Positions 13,096 to 44,487 of a stretch of DNA of 45,326 nucleotides are shown piece after piece; positions within the stretch are counted from its first letter, which is position 1; each line of letters starts with the position of its first letter. The notes beneath the pieces are model-generated. The model searched no databases. It was not told the DNA's origin and saw only the letters and a program-made list of their open reading frames with translations. The position numbers and the translations under genes were made by a program. This DNA is from Bacteroidia bacterium (GTDB lineage Bacteria > Bacteroidota > Bacteroidia > JAIBAJ01). Location of the stretch: positions 1 through 45,326 of the forward strand of contig JAIBAJ010000018.1 of assembly GCA_019695265.1 (NCBI GenBank), in the 5' to 3' direction.

Positions 13096-13158
13096 TATAC
13101 CAATTTTAATTTATAAACAGTCCAAAGGCATTTCATAAATTTGCCGTGTTAAATACCT
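13096..13158 (-). repeat. Hairpin-repeat relative of 43771-43821, opposite orientation
   Basis: The + strand here (ATACCAATTTTAATTTATAA, then A-AGTCC-AAGGC and a TTTcATAAATTT stretch, then GTTAAATACC) matches the reverse complement of about 43758-43825 over some 60 bp. The first 30 bp are nearly identical. In this copy the second arm has decayed, so the hairpin is no longer complete. It begins directly after the stop codon of the polymerase gene. Confidence 0.65.
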
Positions 13159-13209
13159 ATAAAACAATAACTTAGGTCATTTATCCTTTGAAAAAATCAT
13201 ACATTACAT

Positions 13210-13229
13210 TGGACTATACGTAAAGTCCA
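13210..13229. repeat. 20-bp near-perfect palindrome
   Basis: TGGACTATAC is followed by GTAAAGTCCA; nine of ten positions are complementary, with TACGTA at the centre. It lies between the end of module A and repeat element 2. It could be a protein-binding site or part of a decayed hairpin repeat; it has no clear promoter next to it. Confidence 0.4.
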
Positions 13230-13298
13230 TTCGGTATTGCACTAGGATATTCTAAAAAGTCAACTTGGGGCTTACTATACATTTTTTATACTTTTTAT

Positions 13299-13842
13299 GC
13301 GGGCTCCCTCCGCCCAACAAAAATTAAATTAAGCCCCAAACAACCAGCACGGGCGTTCGGGTCACGCTATCGGCTGTAGTCCTCGTCCCCCTAGGCTAAC
13401 GCCGTCGGGGTCCTGTGGGCTACTTGCCTCTATCGTTGCCCGAGGGTGCAAGCTCAATCTTTTACCGTTGTTAGCTTGATTATTTTCTATCCATTTTATT
13501 AATAGAACAACGGATTTTACTAAGTTTATATTTACAAAAACTTTGTAAATCAGTATAGTAGATCCATTTTTATAAGAAAAATGCATACATTAAGTTTGAC
13601 TAAACATTAGGCCCATTTGGTATACTATGTTTCCCCTTGCATAAAACAGTTAGAATACCATGTTAAGTTGGGTTAGAAATGGCAAGTTTAGGTTACGCAT
13701 CGGGCAACGATAGAGGCAAGTAGCTCCAAGTCAACGCAGCGTTTAGCGGAGTTGGCTTGGACTACAGCCGATAGCGTGACCCGAACGCCGGTGCAAGTCG
13801 GTTAGGGTTAAGAAAAAAGCCAGATAGGCGTAGGGGGCCCGC
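13299..13842. repeat. Family 1 structured repeat, inverted pair, element 2
   Basis: Left arm 13299-13454 (+ sense) starts with a hairpin GCGGGCTCCCTCCGCC. Right arm 13700-13842 (- sense) ends with GGCGTAGGGGGCCCGC. The left core has the CCCC/GGGG apical stem around GGCTAACGCC. The right core belongs to a different stem type, with TCCAAG/CTTGGA and CAAC/GTTG pairing around an apical loop with CGCTAAACGC. The centre of about 245 bp is AT-rich and holds small inverted repeats (TTACAAA/TTTGTAA near 13529-13545 and CATTTTT/AAAAATG near 13567-13583) but no credible gene. The element separates the two polysaccharide modules. Confidence 0.85.
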
Positions 13843-29504: not shown

Positions 29505-30124
29505 CATCTTTTTAATTAAGTTGCAGCATAAATTATTAAGGATTTGCACCAAAAAATTAAATCTCAAGGCCTGAAAAATACATGATAAATTGCCTTGGTA
29601 GATTAATTTCAATGGTTCAAACATTAGTCTCTCATTTTACCTTTCTTCTAAAAATTTGCAAATCACCAATTCTGGTTAACTGCCAATCAAACAACACTAC
29701 CTTCGGTAAAAGCCGATATTAAATTTATAGTATGCCTAAACAGCTAATGCAAAGGCACTTCCCACTGTAATTTCCAAAATTGCCTTGATTTATATCCAAA
29801 TAACACTTGGTTTAAAAAAGGATTGAGCCAATGCTTTTTTGAACTTTCTAAAAAAACAGCTTGCAATGAACCAGATTATTTTCAAATGGCACTTCGATTG
29901 AAACACTGGTTCATTAATTTAACCTGTAATTTAATTTCAGCAGATGTTTAAAAAGGTTTAACCAGGAATGGAAAAAAAGAAGGAATTATAAAGGGATTAA
30001 AAATTTGGATTTTAACCCTTTAAACTAAGATCACCCCATCTCATTTTCAGGATTAAACCAACTAAATCCGACCATTCAACTATGGAAGTCACTTTCTGTT
30101 TTATCCTAGAATTGTCATAAGACA
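29505..30124. other. Intergenic stretch with no recognisable gene
   Basis: About 620 bp of AT-rich DNA between two divergent transcription units. No frame has protein-like composition and no tRNA or strong hairpin was seen. Only a 4-bp TACC/GGTA hairpin around 29699 was noticed. It may hold decayed sequence or regulatory sites that I cannot recognise. Confidence 0.5.
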
Positions 30125-30285
30125 TTTTAAACTACGTATCGAGACAAGTGTTAGGATGGTATACAAGTAGTCTTAGTTGGGAAAAAAACCTAACTAACAC
30201 TAGCTCGGGGTTAACCCGAATCTTCCCAAATCCCACCTCACTTGTCAATTGTTCACTTCGTTTCAAATGACAATTTCAGGTTTAA
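30125..30285 (+). repeat. Family 2 hairpin repeat, short copy
   Basis: The left part, 30125-30154 (CGAGACAAGTGTTAG at its end), and the right part, 30196-30285 (starting AACACTAGCTCGGGG), also occur at 43448-43477 and 43824-43913. The two parts pair: CGAG/CTCG and GTGTTAG/CTAACAC. Between them an inner hairpin TTAGTTGGG/CCTAACTAA encloses an A7 loop. The right part has AACCCGAA against TTCAGGTT and a second hairpin TTGTCAATTG/CAAATGACAA around TTCACTTCGTTT. This copy has a centre of only about 40 bp, against about 350 bp in the other copy. Confidence 0.8.
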
Positions 30286-33803: not shown

Positions 33804-34213
33804 GGCGGGCCCCCTTCGCCCAAGAAGGAAAGTGCAAGAACAGTCGAATGGCAATGGGCGTTCGGGTCACGCTATCGGCTGTAGTCCAAGCCAACTCCGC
33901 TAAACGCTGCGTTGGCTTGGAGCTACTTGCCTCTATCGTTGCCCGACCTAAGCCCAACCTTTCCCATTTGATACCATCTGAAGTGTCGTACTTAGAATTT
34001 TATACCCATTTTATATAACTTCAGAACAGCAGATATTTCCCGAACAAAGAACAAATTTCGGGGTTTGCACCTCGGGCAACGATAGAGGCAAGTAACCCAC
34101 AGGCCCACGCGGCGCTAGCCAAGTGGGCCGAGGATTACAGCCGATAGCGTGACCTGAGCCCATGGCTAAATTAATTTCAGTTGCCAACAGGTTGGAGGGC
34201 GAAGGGGCCCGCC
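33804..34213. repeat. Family 1 structured repeat, inverted pair, element 3
   Basis: Left arm 33804-33955 (+ sense) begins GGCGGGCCCCCTTCGCC. Right arm 34061-34213 (- sense) ends GGCGAAGGGGCCCGCC. The left core has the long perfect apical stem TCCAAGCCAAC/GTTGGCTTGGA. The right core has GTAATCC/GGGTTAC, and the apical GGCCCAC/GTGGGCC around GGCTAGCGCC. The centre is about 105 bp. The right outer end lies 42 nt after the holB stop (holB is on the minus strand and reads into this arm); the left end is about 50 bp upstream of the Kazal gene. Confidence 0.85.
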
Positions 34214-39597: not shown

Positions 39598-39724
39598 AAA
39601 AGCAAAGATGAGAAAGGTTTACGAACTTGCAAACCAAAATTCATACCCGGGAATCCTTCATGAAATTTCACTATAGCCCATTTGGCAGATGGTTAGCAAA
39701 ACCATTTTCGAAGTGCGCATGTGT

Positions 39725-39879
39725 GGGGTTGCACCTCGGGCAACGATAGAGGCAAGTAGCCCACAGGACACCGAAGGCGTTAGCCTAGGTGGACGAGGAC
39801 TACAGCCGATAGCGTGACCTGAACGCCCTTGAAAAAAGGATAAATTTGCACTAGATTTTATGGGCGGAAGGGGCCCGCC
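39725..39879 (-). repeat. Family 1 structured repeat, solo right arm
   Basis: A single arm in minus sense, with no partner within reach on its inner side. The outer hairpin GGCGGAAGGGGCCCGCC is at 39863-39879. The core (read on the minus strand) has GTAGTCC/GGGCTAC and an apical stem CACC/GGTG around GGCTAACGCC. The outer end lies 23 nt after the stop of the FGGY kinase, which reads into the arm in the sense direction. Its inner end faces recX. Confidence 0.85.
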
Positions 39880-41672: not shown

Positions 41673-43061
41673 ATGAACGAACCAAAGAATTCCATTCAAG
41701 TGGCAAAAATTTTAATGATCGACGATGACGAGGATGTGTTATTGGCAGCCCGTATCTTGTTAAAAAACTATTTTACCAATGTAGTTACCGAGAAGAATCC
41801 GGAGAAACTGATGAATTTATTGAGTCAGGACAAGTTTGATGTGATTTTGCTCGACATGAATTACCGAAGCCGGATTAATTCAGGCAACGAAGGATTGTAT
41901 TGGTTAAGAAGCATTTTGGAAAAAGACAAAGATGCCATTGTGATATTAATAACAGCCTTTGGCGACATTGAATTGGCAGTTCGGGCAATTAAAGATGGTG
42001 CTACCGATTTTGTGCTTAAGCCTTGGCACAATGAAAAACTGGTTGCAACTATTCATTCGGCAATGGAACTTAGTAAAAGCCGAAAGGAAGTCATTGATTT
42101 AAAGAAAAAGAACCAAAATTTGGCTGAGCTAAGCGGAAATATTCCGGAATTCATTGGTGTTTCACCGGCAATGAAAAAAATCTTTGCCACCATAGAAAAA
42201 GTAGCCCCTACCGATGCCAACGTATTAATTTTGGGCGAAAATGGAACCGGTAAAGAGCTTGTTGCCAAAGCATTACACAGACAAAGCAAGCGAGGGAAAG
42301 AGGCCTTTGTTTCGGTTGATTTAGGCTCTTTGAGTGAAACCCTGTTCGAAAGCGAACTGTTTGGTCACGTAAAAGGCTCGTTCACCGATGCCAGAGAAGA
42401 TAGGGCAGGTCGGTTTGAAGTTGCCAACAAAGGCAGCTTATTTTTGGATGAAATTGGGAATTTAAGCCTTCCCATGCAAGCCAAACTTCTAACGGCTCTT
42501 CAAACCAGGCAGGTAACCCGAATCGGCTCCAACAAAAGTGCAGGGATAGATATTCGCCTGATATGTGCTACCAACATGAAATTATACGACATGGTGGACG
42601 ACAGCCAGTTTCGCCAAGATTTATTGTACCGAATCAATACCGTTGAAATTACCATTCCCCCTTTGCGCGAGCGACCCGAAGACATTGAACCATTGGCCAG
42701 GCATTACTTTGGTTTATATACGCGCAAATACTTAAAAACGGAGATGCAGCTAAGCAAAGAAGCTATTCAGAAGCTCAAATTTTATTCCTGGCCGGGTAAT
42801 GTACGCGAGTTGCAGCATAGTATGGAAAGGGCTGTTATTCTAGCCGAGGGCCAAGTACTTCGGGATGAAGATTTTATGTTGGCTACTCAATCCAAAAAAG
42901 CCTTGGAAATGATGCCCATGACCCTAAATTTGGAGGATACTGAAAGGAGACTTATCAAGCAAGCTATCGACAAACATCATGGAAATATCAGTCGTGCGGC
43001 CGGAGAACTAGGTTTGACCCGTGCGGCCTTGTATCGTCGAATGGAAAAATTCGGTTTATAG
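41673..43061 (+). CDS. NtrC-family sigma-54-dependent response regulator
   Basis: A 462-aa transcription regulator. The receiver has the acidic pocket D17-D19, phospho-acceptor D61 in VILLDMNY, T94 and K116 in VLKPW. The AAA+ domain has Walker A GENGTGKE (188-195), Walker B SLFLDEIG (255-262) and, in the place of the sigma-54 contact loop GAFTGA, the variant GSFTDA (235-240). A Fis-type helix-turn-helix (ISRAAGELGLTRAALYRRMEKFGL) ends the protein. Genes of this kind are often followed by their sensor kinase; here a solo family 1 repeat arm begins 13 nt after the stop and no kinase is seen. Confidence 0.95.
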   Translation: MNEPKNSIQVAKILMIDDDEDVLLAARILLKNYFTNVVTEKNPEKLMNLLSQDKFDVILLDMNYRSRINSGNEGLYWLRSILEKDKDAIVILITAFGDIELAVRAIKDGATDFVLKPWHNEKLVATIHSAMELSKSRKEVIDLKKKNQNLAELSGNIPEFIGVSPAMKKIFATIEKVAPTDANVLILGENGTGKELVAKALHRQSKRGKEAFVSVDLGSLSETLFESELFGHVKGSFTDAREDRAGRFEVANKGSLFLDEIGNLSLPMQAKLLTALQTRQVTRIGSNKSAGIDIRLICATNMKLYDMVDDSQFRQDLLYRINTVEITIPPLRERPEDIEPLARHYFGLYTRKYLKTEMQLSKEAIQKLKFYSWPGNVRELQHSMERAVILAEGQVLRDEDFMLATQSKKALEMMPMTLNLEDTERRLIKQAIDKHHGNISRAAGELGLTRAALYRRMEKFGL

Positions 43062-43073
43062 TTTTTTAAGTAT

Positions 43074-43230
43074 GCGGGCCCCCTTCCGCCTACCAGTTGT
43101 TTGCCGGAATTGAAGATTTTGCAAGTGGCGTTCGGGTCACGCTTTCGGCTGTAGTCCTCGTCCCCCTAGGCTAGCGCCGTAGGTGTCCTGTGGGCTACTT
43201 GCCTCTATCGTTGCCCGAGGATGCAAGCCC
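43074..43230 (+). repeat. Family 1 structured repeat, solo left arm
   Basis: A single arm in plus sense. The outer hairpin GCGGGCCCCCTTCCGCC is at 43074-43090, 13 nt after the regulator stop. The core has GTAGTCC/GGGCTAC, and an apical CNCCTA/TAGGTG-type stem around GGCTAGCGCC, then the CCCGAGGATGCAAGCCC inner end. No matching right arm follows; at about 43448 a different repeat (family 2) begins. With the arm at 39725 it brackets the kinase-regulator gene pair, outer ends facing the genes. Confidence 0.87.
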
Positions 43231-43499
43231 AATCTACCTTTCCTTTCCAATCAGTTGTGGTACAAGAAAAGGCTCAAAAAAAACAGGTGAATGTTTTTCA
43301 ACGAACTTACGGTCCAAATTCAACCCAAAAACTGCCATAGAATTCTACTAGGGCTTCCAACTACACCAAATTCAAGGATTTCTAATGCAGGATTTGGATC
43401 TATTCCAATAATCAATTCCGCAATAAACCCAAAATTGTCAATAGAAATTTTAAACTACGTTTCGAGACAAGTGTTAGTAAGGCTTTCAAGTAATTTTTA

Positions 43500-43576
43500 C
43501 CGAGAGAACATTATGTAATATCAATTTATATATTAGTTTTCTTATGTAAAATTGTTATAACATAATGTATCCTCGG
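43500..43576. repeat. Tandem hairpin 1
   Basis: Stem order: CCGAG/CTCGG, a 3-nt internal loop, ACATTATGT/ACATAATGT, a 5-nt internal loop, CAATTT/AAATTG, and a terminal AT-rich loop. This layout recurs in the next two hairpins with other bases. Confidence 0.75.
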
Positions 43577-43600
43577 CATATTCCTAAGTTTGAAAGAATA

Positions 43601-43675
43601 CCGAGAGTACAAAATGAAAGTCCTATTAAGTGTTAATATTTCTTGTAAAATAGGACTAACATTTTGTTTCCTCGG
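43601..43675. repeat. Tandem hairpin 2
   Basis: Stem order: CCGAG/CTCGG, a 3-nt internal loop, ACAAAATG/CATTTTGT, a 3-nt internal loop, GTCCTATT/AATAGGAC. The lower stem CCGAG and the 3-nt loop are as in hairpin 1; the middle stem has changed on both sides. Confidence 0.78.
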
Positions 43676-43687
43676 CACTAACTAATA

Positions 43688-43765
43688 CCGAATGTACATT
43701 ATGTTTAGGCCAATTTTAGGTATTAATTCCTATTGAAAAATAGGCCTAACATACTGTATACTCGG
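43688..43765. repeat. Tandem hairpin 3
   Basis: Stem order: CCGA/TCGG, an internal loop of 4 nt, ACATTATG/CATACTGT (one mismatch), then TTAGGCC/GGCCTAA. It is the most eroded of the three but keeps the plan of hairpins 1 and 2. Confidence 0.7.
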
Positions 43766-43770
43766 TATTT

Positions 43771-43821
43771 ACCAATCTAAATTTATAAAAGCCTTCGGAC
43801 TATTTATAAATTAAAATTGGT
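43771..43821. repeat. Hairpin 4, a different family
   Basis: ACCAATCTAAATTTATAAA pairs with TTTATAAATTAAAATTGGT with few mismatches around a loop containing GCCTTCGG. A relative in opposite orientation lies at 13096-13158 after the polymerase gene of module A. Confidence 0.72.
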
Positions 43822-44151
43822 ATAACACTAGCTCGGGATTAACCCAAATCATCCCACATCCCATCGCGCTTGTCATTTGTTCACTTCGTTACAAATGACA
43901 ATTTTGGGTTTATAACTATCAGGCTACTGCAAGATGGGAGCATTTTAAACCATCCATGTACTTATTTTGGAATTGTAAACTAGTCGGTCATAATGGGCTG
44001 CAAAAAAGATAGAAATGAGCAGATGCAAGAAATTTATAGCTCTTTATGTAAATCCCTTGCAGGTAGATTTAATCCATTTGGAGAAAAACTATGAAATAAA
44101 AACAGGTAGAGTTTATTTCAAATATCCAACCTACCAACCTAGGCAATTGAC

Positions 44152-44487
44152 CTAATCGACTTTTTCTACTACTACAGCGGTGCCATAGGCAAGTACCTCG
44201 GTCATTCCGGCCATTACTTCATTGGCATCATACCTCATATTTATGATAGCATTTGCCCCAGCCTGATGGGCGTGAAAGATCATCAACTGGTAAGCTTCTT
44301 CCCTGGCCTTTTCACACAATTCCGTATAAATTGAATTTTTACCTCCGAAAATGGCCAATATCCCTCCGGCGAAATTCCCAATCACACTGCGTGAACGAAC
44401 CGTAATGCCACGTACTAAACCTAATTGGCGTGTAACTTTATACCCTTCCAATCCGGTACTGGTTGTGATTAATAAACTGGTATTCAT
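44152..44487 (-). CDS. YbjQ/UPF0145-family protein
   Basis: A 111-aa cytosolic protein of the YbjQ (UPF0145, heavy-metal-binding domain) family. Marks are LLITTSTGLEGYKVTRQLGLVRGITVRSRSVIGNFAGGI near the start, ARQEAY-like AREEAYQLMIFHAHQAGANAIINMRYD in the middle, and a final strand LAYGTAVVVEK. The family forms a pentameric ring in known structures; its role is unresolved. It is divergent from the sugar transferase gene downstream. Confidence 0.9.
   Translation of the reverse strand: MNTSLLITTSTGLEGYKVTRQLGLVRGITVRSRSVIGNFAGGILAIFGGKNSIYTELCEKAREEAYQLMIFHAHQAGANAIINMRYDANEVMAGMTEVLAYGTAVVVEKVD

Follow-up and report, generated by a model that had tools for sequence, protein, structure and literature searches.

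Three tandem hairpins in a Bacteroidia genome are probably modules of two nested MITE-like repeats

Results

Three hairpins between two convergent genes

The window, i.e. the whole stretch of 45,326 nucleotides that was analysed (contig JAIBAJ010000018.1 of assembly GCA_019695265.1), comes from a bacterium of the class Bacteroidia. The hairpins lie between the 3' ends of a gene for a sigma-54-dependent response regulator (41673-43061, plus strand) and a YbjQ-family gene (44152-44487, minus strand). There is no open reading frame of 80 amino acids or more between 43062 and 44151, and no intrinsic terminator (a GC-rich stem followed by a T run) in 43000-44200. Another interspersed repeat, GC-rich and about 105 bp long (..CTATCGGCTGTAGTCCTCGTCCCCCTCGGCTAGCGCC..GTGGGCTACTTGCCTCTATCGTTGCCCGAGG), is present at 43127-43231. 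It has eight copies in the window, the others being at 185-288, 13352-13456 and 33857-33946 and, on the minus strand, at 437-526, 13700-13789, 34061-34157 and 39724-39827; it also occurs near roughly half of the loci fetched.

A sequence-only reading had placed tandem hairpins at 43500-43576, 43601-43675 and 43688-43765, and all three are confirmed. The folding energies of hairpins 1, 2 and 3, folded as RNA, are -27.2, -26.2 and -34.5 kcal/mol, corresponding to z-scores of -6.6, -5.7 and -7.1, and none of 200 dinucleotide shuffles folds as well. The plus and minus strands fold with similar stability, as near-palindromic DNA should. The common plan ascribed to the three hairpins is borne out by the repeats I2, I4 and D1, although two details need correction. 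The CCGAG-type base does not extend to hairpin 3, whose base is CCGA/TCGG rather than CCGAG/CTCGG and whose middle stem is ACATTATG/CATACTGT with one T.C mismatch. Moreover, the middle stem is changed on both sides in hairpin 2 relative to hairpins 1 and 3, but not between hairpins 1 and 3, in which its 5' side is identical. The earlier coordinates also understate the feature, as the hairpins are the inner parts of larger nested repeats.

Element I carries hairpins 1 and 2

Hairpins 1 and 2 belong to a copy of element I (43423..43913, plus strand), which is composed of a left end (LI), hairpin A, a spacer, hairpin B, an inserted element II, and a right end (RI). The copy is delimited by terminal inverted repeats, dispersed copies, and target duplications. 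The module map places LI at 43423..43497 and RI at 43827..43913, both on the plus strand. Between them, on the same strand, hairpin module A (hairpin 1) spans 43498..43578 and hairpin module B (hairpin 2) spans 43599..43677, each defined by its fold and by other copies. The spacer (43579..43598, plus strand) is defined by the alignment of copies, in which it also lies 3' of A in other copies with two hairpins and in those without B. A second copy of element I in the window (30105..30284, plus strand) has no hairpin between LI and RI.

The terminal inverted repeats of element I are about 25 nt long (43423-43447 and 43889-43913), are 88% complementary, and recur across copies; they read CCCAAAATTGTCA.. 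and ..TGACAATTTTGGG. Exact 5-bp identity of the two flanks (e.g. TTAAT, TTTAT, or ATAAT) is found in 10 of 26 copies, compared with a mean of 2.6 and a maximum of 8 in shuffled flanks, and none of the 26 copies has a flank match of 3, 4, 6, or 7 bp. Hairpins A and B themselves show no clear target duplication at their own insertion, which counts against a mobile-repeat model.

Element II is inserted in element I and carries hairpin 3

Element II (43686..43822, plus strand), of which hairpin 3 forms the first module, is a repeat with TACCGA..TTGGTA ends that is delimited by its full-length copies elsewhere. In particular, hairpin module E (hairpin 3; 43686..43767), supported by its fold and by the module map, is followed on the same strand by the T module (43769..43822), the palindromic right end on that map. 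Element II as a whole folds with a z-score of -8.3. It begins with TACCGAATG and finishes with ATTGGTA, and the short consensus of its ends is TACCRA..TYGGTA. Of the 43 copies listed, 26 have a 3-bp TWA duplication (TTA or TAA) in their flanks, whereas 14.7 three-base matches are obtained on average after shuffling (P about 1e-4); there is no 4- or 5-bp match, and 2-bp matches are rare or absent. The window also contains a diverged copy (T plus an F-like hairpin; 13098..13236, minus strand) of about 76% identity, and the module map adds a partial, diverged element II hairpin (13551..13622, minus strand).

With its true start at 43686, the copy inside element I has TAA on each side (43683..43685 and 43823..43825, plus strand). 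All other aligned copies of element I have a single, uninterrupted CTAACTAACACTAG at this position; they read CTAACTAACACTAGC, whereas the window copy reads CTAAC-TAA-(element II)-TAA-CACTAGC. The uninterrupted site elsewhere, together with the TAA duplication, indicates that hairpin 3 arrived by insertion of element II. The proposal that the three hairpins arose by tandem amplification is therefore contradicted for hairpin 3, which belongs to a separate mobile element.

Both elements have the characters of MITEs, namely terminal inverted repeats, target duplications of fixed length, short length (about 137-525 bp), no transposase gene, and dispersed copies. We consider it highly probable that two non-autonomous, MITE-like mobile repeats are nested in this region and that the modular hairpins are part of their DNA architecture. 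Hairpins that have internal loops and are regularly spaced in tandem also recall integron-like attC sites arrayed without cassettes. However, there are no cassette genes between the hairpins and no match to Rfam, and the copies are dispersed with target duplications, so that attC sites are an extremely improbable explanation.

Modular architecture and hairpin number

A pattern search of the window's own draft genome (3.83 Mb, 213 contigs) found many more hairpins that have the base in common and are related in their stems, and DNA searches extended the set. A covariance model built from 17 hairpins gives 141 matches at E <= 0.001, which reduce to 105 places when matches on both strands are merged. 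The further copies for which the sequence-only reading had suggested a search thus exist, at about 105 places that form 81 arrays, of which 61 contain one hairpin, 17 two, 2 three, and 1 four. The spacing within arrays is regular, with hairpin starts 86-87 or 99-101 bp apart.

The architecture is strict in the module map, which covers about 55 fetched loci. Hairpin types A, B, and C always lie between LI and RI, giving the forms LI-{0, A, B, C, A-B, A-C}-RI for element I. Hairpins E, G, H, F, and K lie upstream of T, giving the forms {E, G, H, F}(-K)n-T for element II. One chimera (L052, 1493-1751) has the element II hairpins K-H joined to the RI of element I. In addition, a 67-nt hairpin (CCGAGAGGAAAAATAATATGATTCCAG..CTGGAATCATTTATTTTTATCCTCGG) is found within element II arrays, mostly in the opposite orientation to the other hairpins (L029, L030-L037, and L064).

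Element I thus has zero, one, or two hairpins. The copies with none are the one at 30105-30284 of the window and those on contigs C58, C105, and C92. Some copies retain A and the spacer without B, and in others a single hairpin is joined directly to the sequence 3' of B; at L017, a B hairpin carries the left flank of A. The directly joined class, including L017, is the product expected of recombination between A and B. In the copy on C164, only a mini-hairpin built of the outer parts is left. The histories are read from the forms themselves: two-hairpin copies appear to have collapsed to one hairpin, and the C164 copy appears to have shrunk. A hairpin-mediated change in copy number, suggested earlier in the form of duplication, is thus partly upheld.

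Hairpins of one element have a common outer base (A and B compared with E and K), and the second-position hairpins B and K have a common ACAAAATGT middle stem. This mosaic of bases and middle stems among A, B, E, and K suggests exchange or homogenisation between modules.

Pairing is kept between subfamilies and decays within them

When the hairpins are set in register, standard pairs occupy 901 of 1029 cells, compared with a mean of 838 after partners are shuffled among sequences and with 29-39% for slid registers. These counts use a register set by hand, as the MAFFT alignment misplaces one upper-stem nucleotide between element I and element II hairpins. Two-sided changes that keep pairing occur at five pair positions between hairpin types. 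They separate subfamilies and thus stand for few events.

The pattern within subfamilies is different. In a first sample, made of copies chosen by motif, pairing is lost at 23 of 25 stem substitutions. Among 82 copies chosen by BLAST, a larger and less biased set, 30 of 33 stem substitutions disrupt a pair and none has a compensating change in its partner, a pattern that speaks against selection for folding of the individual copies. Per site, stems in the 82 copies vary less than unpaired positions (1.1% versus 2.4%), which could reflect some constraint; the distinct substitution events counted in the first sample (26 versus 35) give a small difference between stems and unpaired positions. The compensatory change noted from the sequence alone is therefore real between hairpin types and does not continue within subfamilies. 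A functional fold selected at each locus is not supported, and variation that breaks the pairing, the pattern named in advance as speaking against the proposal, is found in part, among copies within this genome. We read this as pairing that mattered in the source elements, or arose with them, followed by largely unconstrained decay.

The same data bear on the explanation in which a structured RNA with a function, or a site of RNA processing, multiplied in tandem at this locus and was maintained through compensatory change. The strong folds, the double-sided changes at five pairs between subfamilies, and the lower per-site variability of stems are consistent with this explanation, and the copies are mostly downstream of genes, so that many could be transcribed. 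However, the stem changes within subfamilies are nearly all pair-breaking, hairpin 3 is part of a separately inserted element, both strands fold about equally as a DNA palindrome would, and no Rfam family scores at or above its gathering score anywhere in the window. We regard such an RNA as very unlikely.

Placement relative to genes

None of 59 clusters lies inside an open reading frame, according to frames called mechanically. Where the orientation of both neighbours is known, 26 clusters are between convergent genes, 15 between co-directional genes, and 5 between divergent genes. The excess of convergent over divergent placements and the stable stems on both strands would suit bidirectional 3'-end elements, such as terminators, mRNA-stabilising stem-loops, or RNase III sites between convergent genes. 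However, 43000-44200 contains no site that resembles an intrinsic terminator, and loss of promoter-damaging insertions would produce the same bias. REP palindromes, which lie mostly between convergent or co-directional genes, have a similar bias (PMC3733652). A role as 3'-end elements is therefore unlikely, though less so than a structured RNA kept by compensatory change.

Distribution and candidate mobilisers

The repeat family seems to be limited to this species or to close relatives of it. A DNA search of 39 relatives of the same class, all outside the host's genus, family, and order, gave no match, nor did the covariance model in 148 other genomes of the class, and no copy was found among IMG/VR viral contigs, plasmids, and phages. 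In genome_contigs, the pattern matched exactly only once outside this genome, in a Bacteroidales MAG; the site lacks an inverted repeat and a hairpin and is taken as chance.

No transposase with matching ends is present among the matches to PF01797, PF01609, PF13701, and PF00665 in the draft of 213 contigs. The only match to DDE_Tnp_1 (PF01609) is a pseudogene with no module or matching ends nearby, the IS1380-type DDE_Tnp_1_4 (PF13701) has no match in the genome, and rve (PF00665) has one partial match at a contig end with no module nearby. An autonomous element I, sought as pairs of ends at the spacing of an IS, is absent among the matches listed. An autonomous copy could be absent from the draft assembly only, i.e. 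missed in its 213 contigs.

The genome holds two Y1 transposase genes. One (L071, G000:C29:11539-11883) lies between tandem GATATGTGACCCCGATGGGGTCG palindromes, with which it apparently forms a REP/RAYT system; the other (L072, G000:C16:3815-4132) lies beside TATGACGGTTTAAACCGTCATAA palindromes. As partners of the repeats described here, both were rejected, each being flanked by unrelated palindromes of its own (GTGACCCCGATGGGGTC; TGACGGTTTAAACCGTCA) with no copy of the modules. Two such genes in a genome with palindromic, intergenic repeats of high copy number would be compatible with REP-type palindromes that depend on a Y1 tyrosine transposase (RAYT) for their mobility. Nevertheless, the genes adjoin other palindromes, the hairpins are about 80 nt long, neither a GTAG nor a CGTC tag occurs in the aligned copies, and the parent elements I and II make target duplications. 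Mobilisation of this type is thus highly improbable.

Discussion

We propose that the region was built in two steps. Element I, consisting of LI, a variable number of hairpins, and RI, would first have entered the intergenic region and duplicated 5 bp of the target. Element II, consisting of at least one hairpin and T, would later have inserted in element I with a 3-bp TWA duplication, adding the third hairpin. Transposases that act on the terminal inverted repeats probably mobilise both elements in trans, or once did. The middle of both elements would be made up of exchangeable hairpin modules that have TACCGA..TCGG ends, and hairpin number may change through recombination or, presumably, slippage between similar hairpins. 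The hairpins would be palindromic modules kept in source copies, rather than RNA held by selection at each locus.

A variant would assign the hairpins a more active part. The TACCGA..TCGG hairpin would be the recognition unit of a putative recombinase or transposase, single hairpins would be gained or lost by elements I and II as exchangeable cassettes, and the compensatory change would reflect selection on the hairpin as the DNA on which such an enzyme acts in source copies that are active. We consider this variant doubtful and favour the nest of MITE-like repeats. The region is a further case of a known kind of genomic parasite; a specific functional RNA is improbable. The appearance of a selected RNA fold can come from nested mobile repeats, whose subfamilies differ in both arms and whose copies decay. 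The analysis adds a modular, BOX-like repeat family of a Bacteroidia-type genome. Its ends and target duplications are unusually clear, as are its intermediate forms, so that module gain and loss can be tested.

Classical bacterial MITEs, such as Correia, RUP, and Nezha, are short, non-coding, and highly paired, and have terminal inverted repeats and target duplications (in part PMC3049150). In contrast to these, elements I and II carry modular hairpin cargo, and no parent IS was found in the draft genome for the four transposase families searched. The likeness to REP/BIME elements lies in high-copy intergenic palindromes that are often clustered and are placed downstream of genes or between convergent genes; the hairpins here are longer, and have target duplications but no GTAG/CGTC tag or adjacent Y1 gene.

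As a modular MITE-like system, the repeats appear to work like the BOX elements of pneumococcus and BrickBuilt of Porphyromonas, common ancestry being neither shown nor claimed. BOX of Streptococcus pneumoniae has the structure boxA-boxB(n)-boxC, in which the ends are fixed and the largely self-folding boxB modules vary in number (PMC3049150). The elements here are likewise composite intergenic repeats with fixed ends and a varying number of internal modules. They occur in a different phylum and are likened to BOX by their way of working, with no Rfam match in the window. Unlike in BOX, the modules are about 80 nt long and fall into several subfamilies that have diverged, related hairpins are shared by two sets of ends (those of elements I and II), and the target duplications (5 bp and 3 bp) are clear.

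BrickBuilt, a MITE of Porphyromonas gingivalis (Bacteroidota), has a leader and a tail with terminal inverted repeats, variable internal repeats, and predicted stem-loops, and one of its copies has been invaded by another MITE (PMC4596501). Inverted-repeat ends, a variable internal array, stem-loops, and a nested MITE are thus common to both systems. However, the internal unit of BrickBuilt is a 23-nt direct repeat, its ends are IS5-like (GAGACC..) rather than CCCAAAATTG or TACCGA, and its target duplications are irregular, unlike those of elements I and II.
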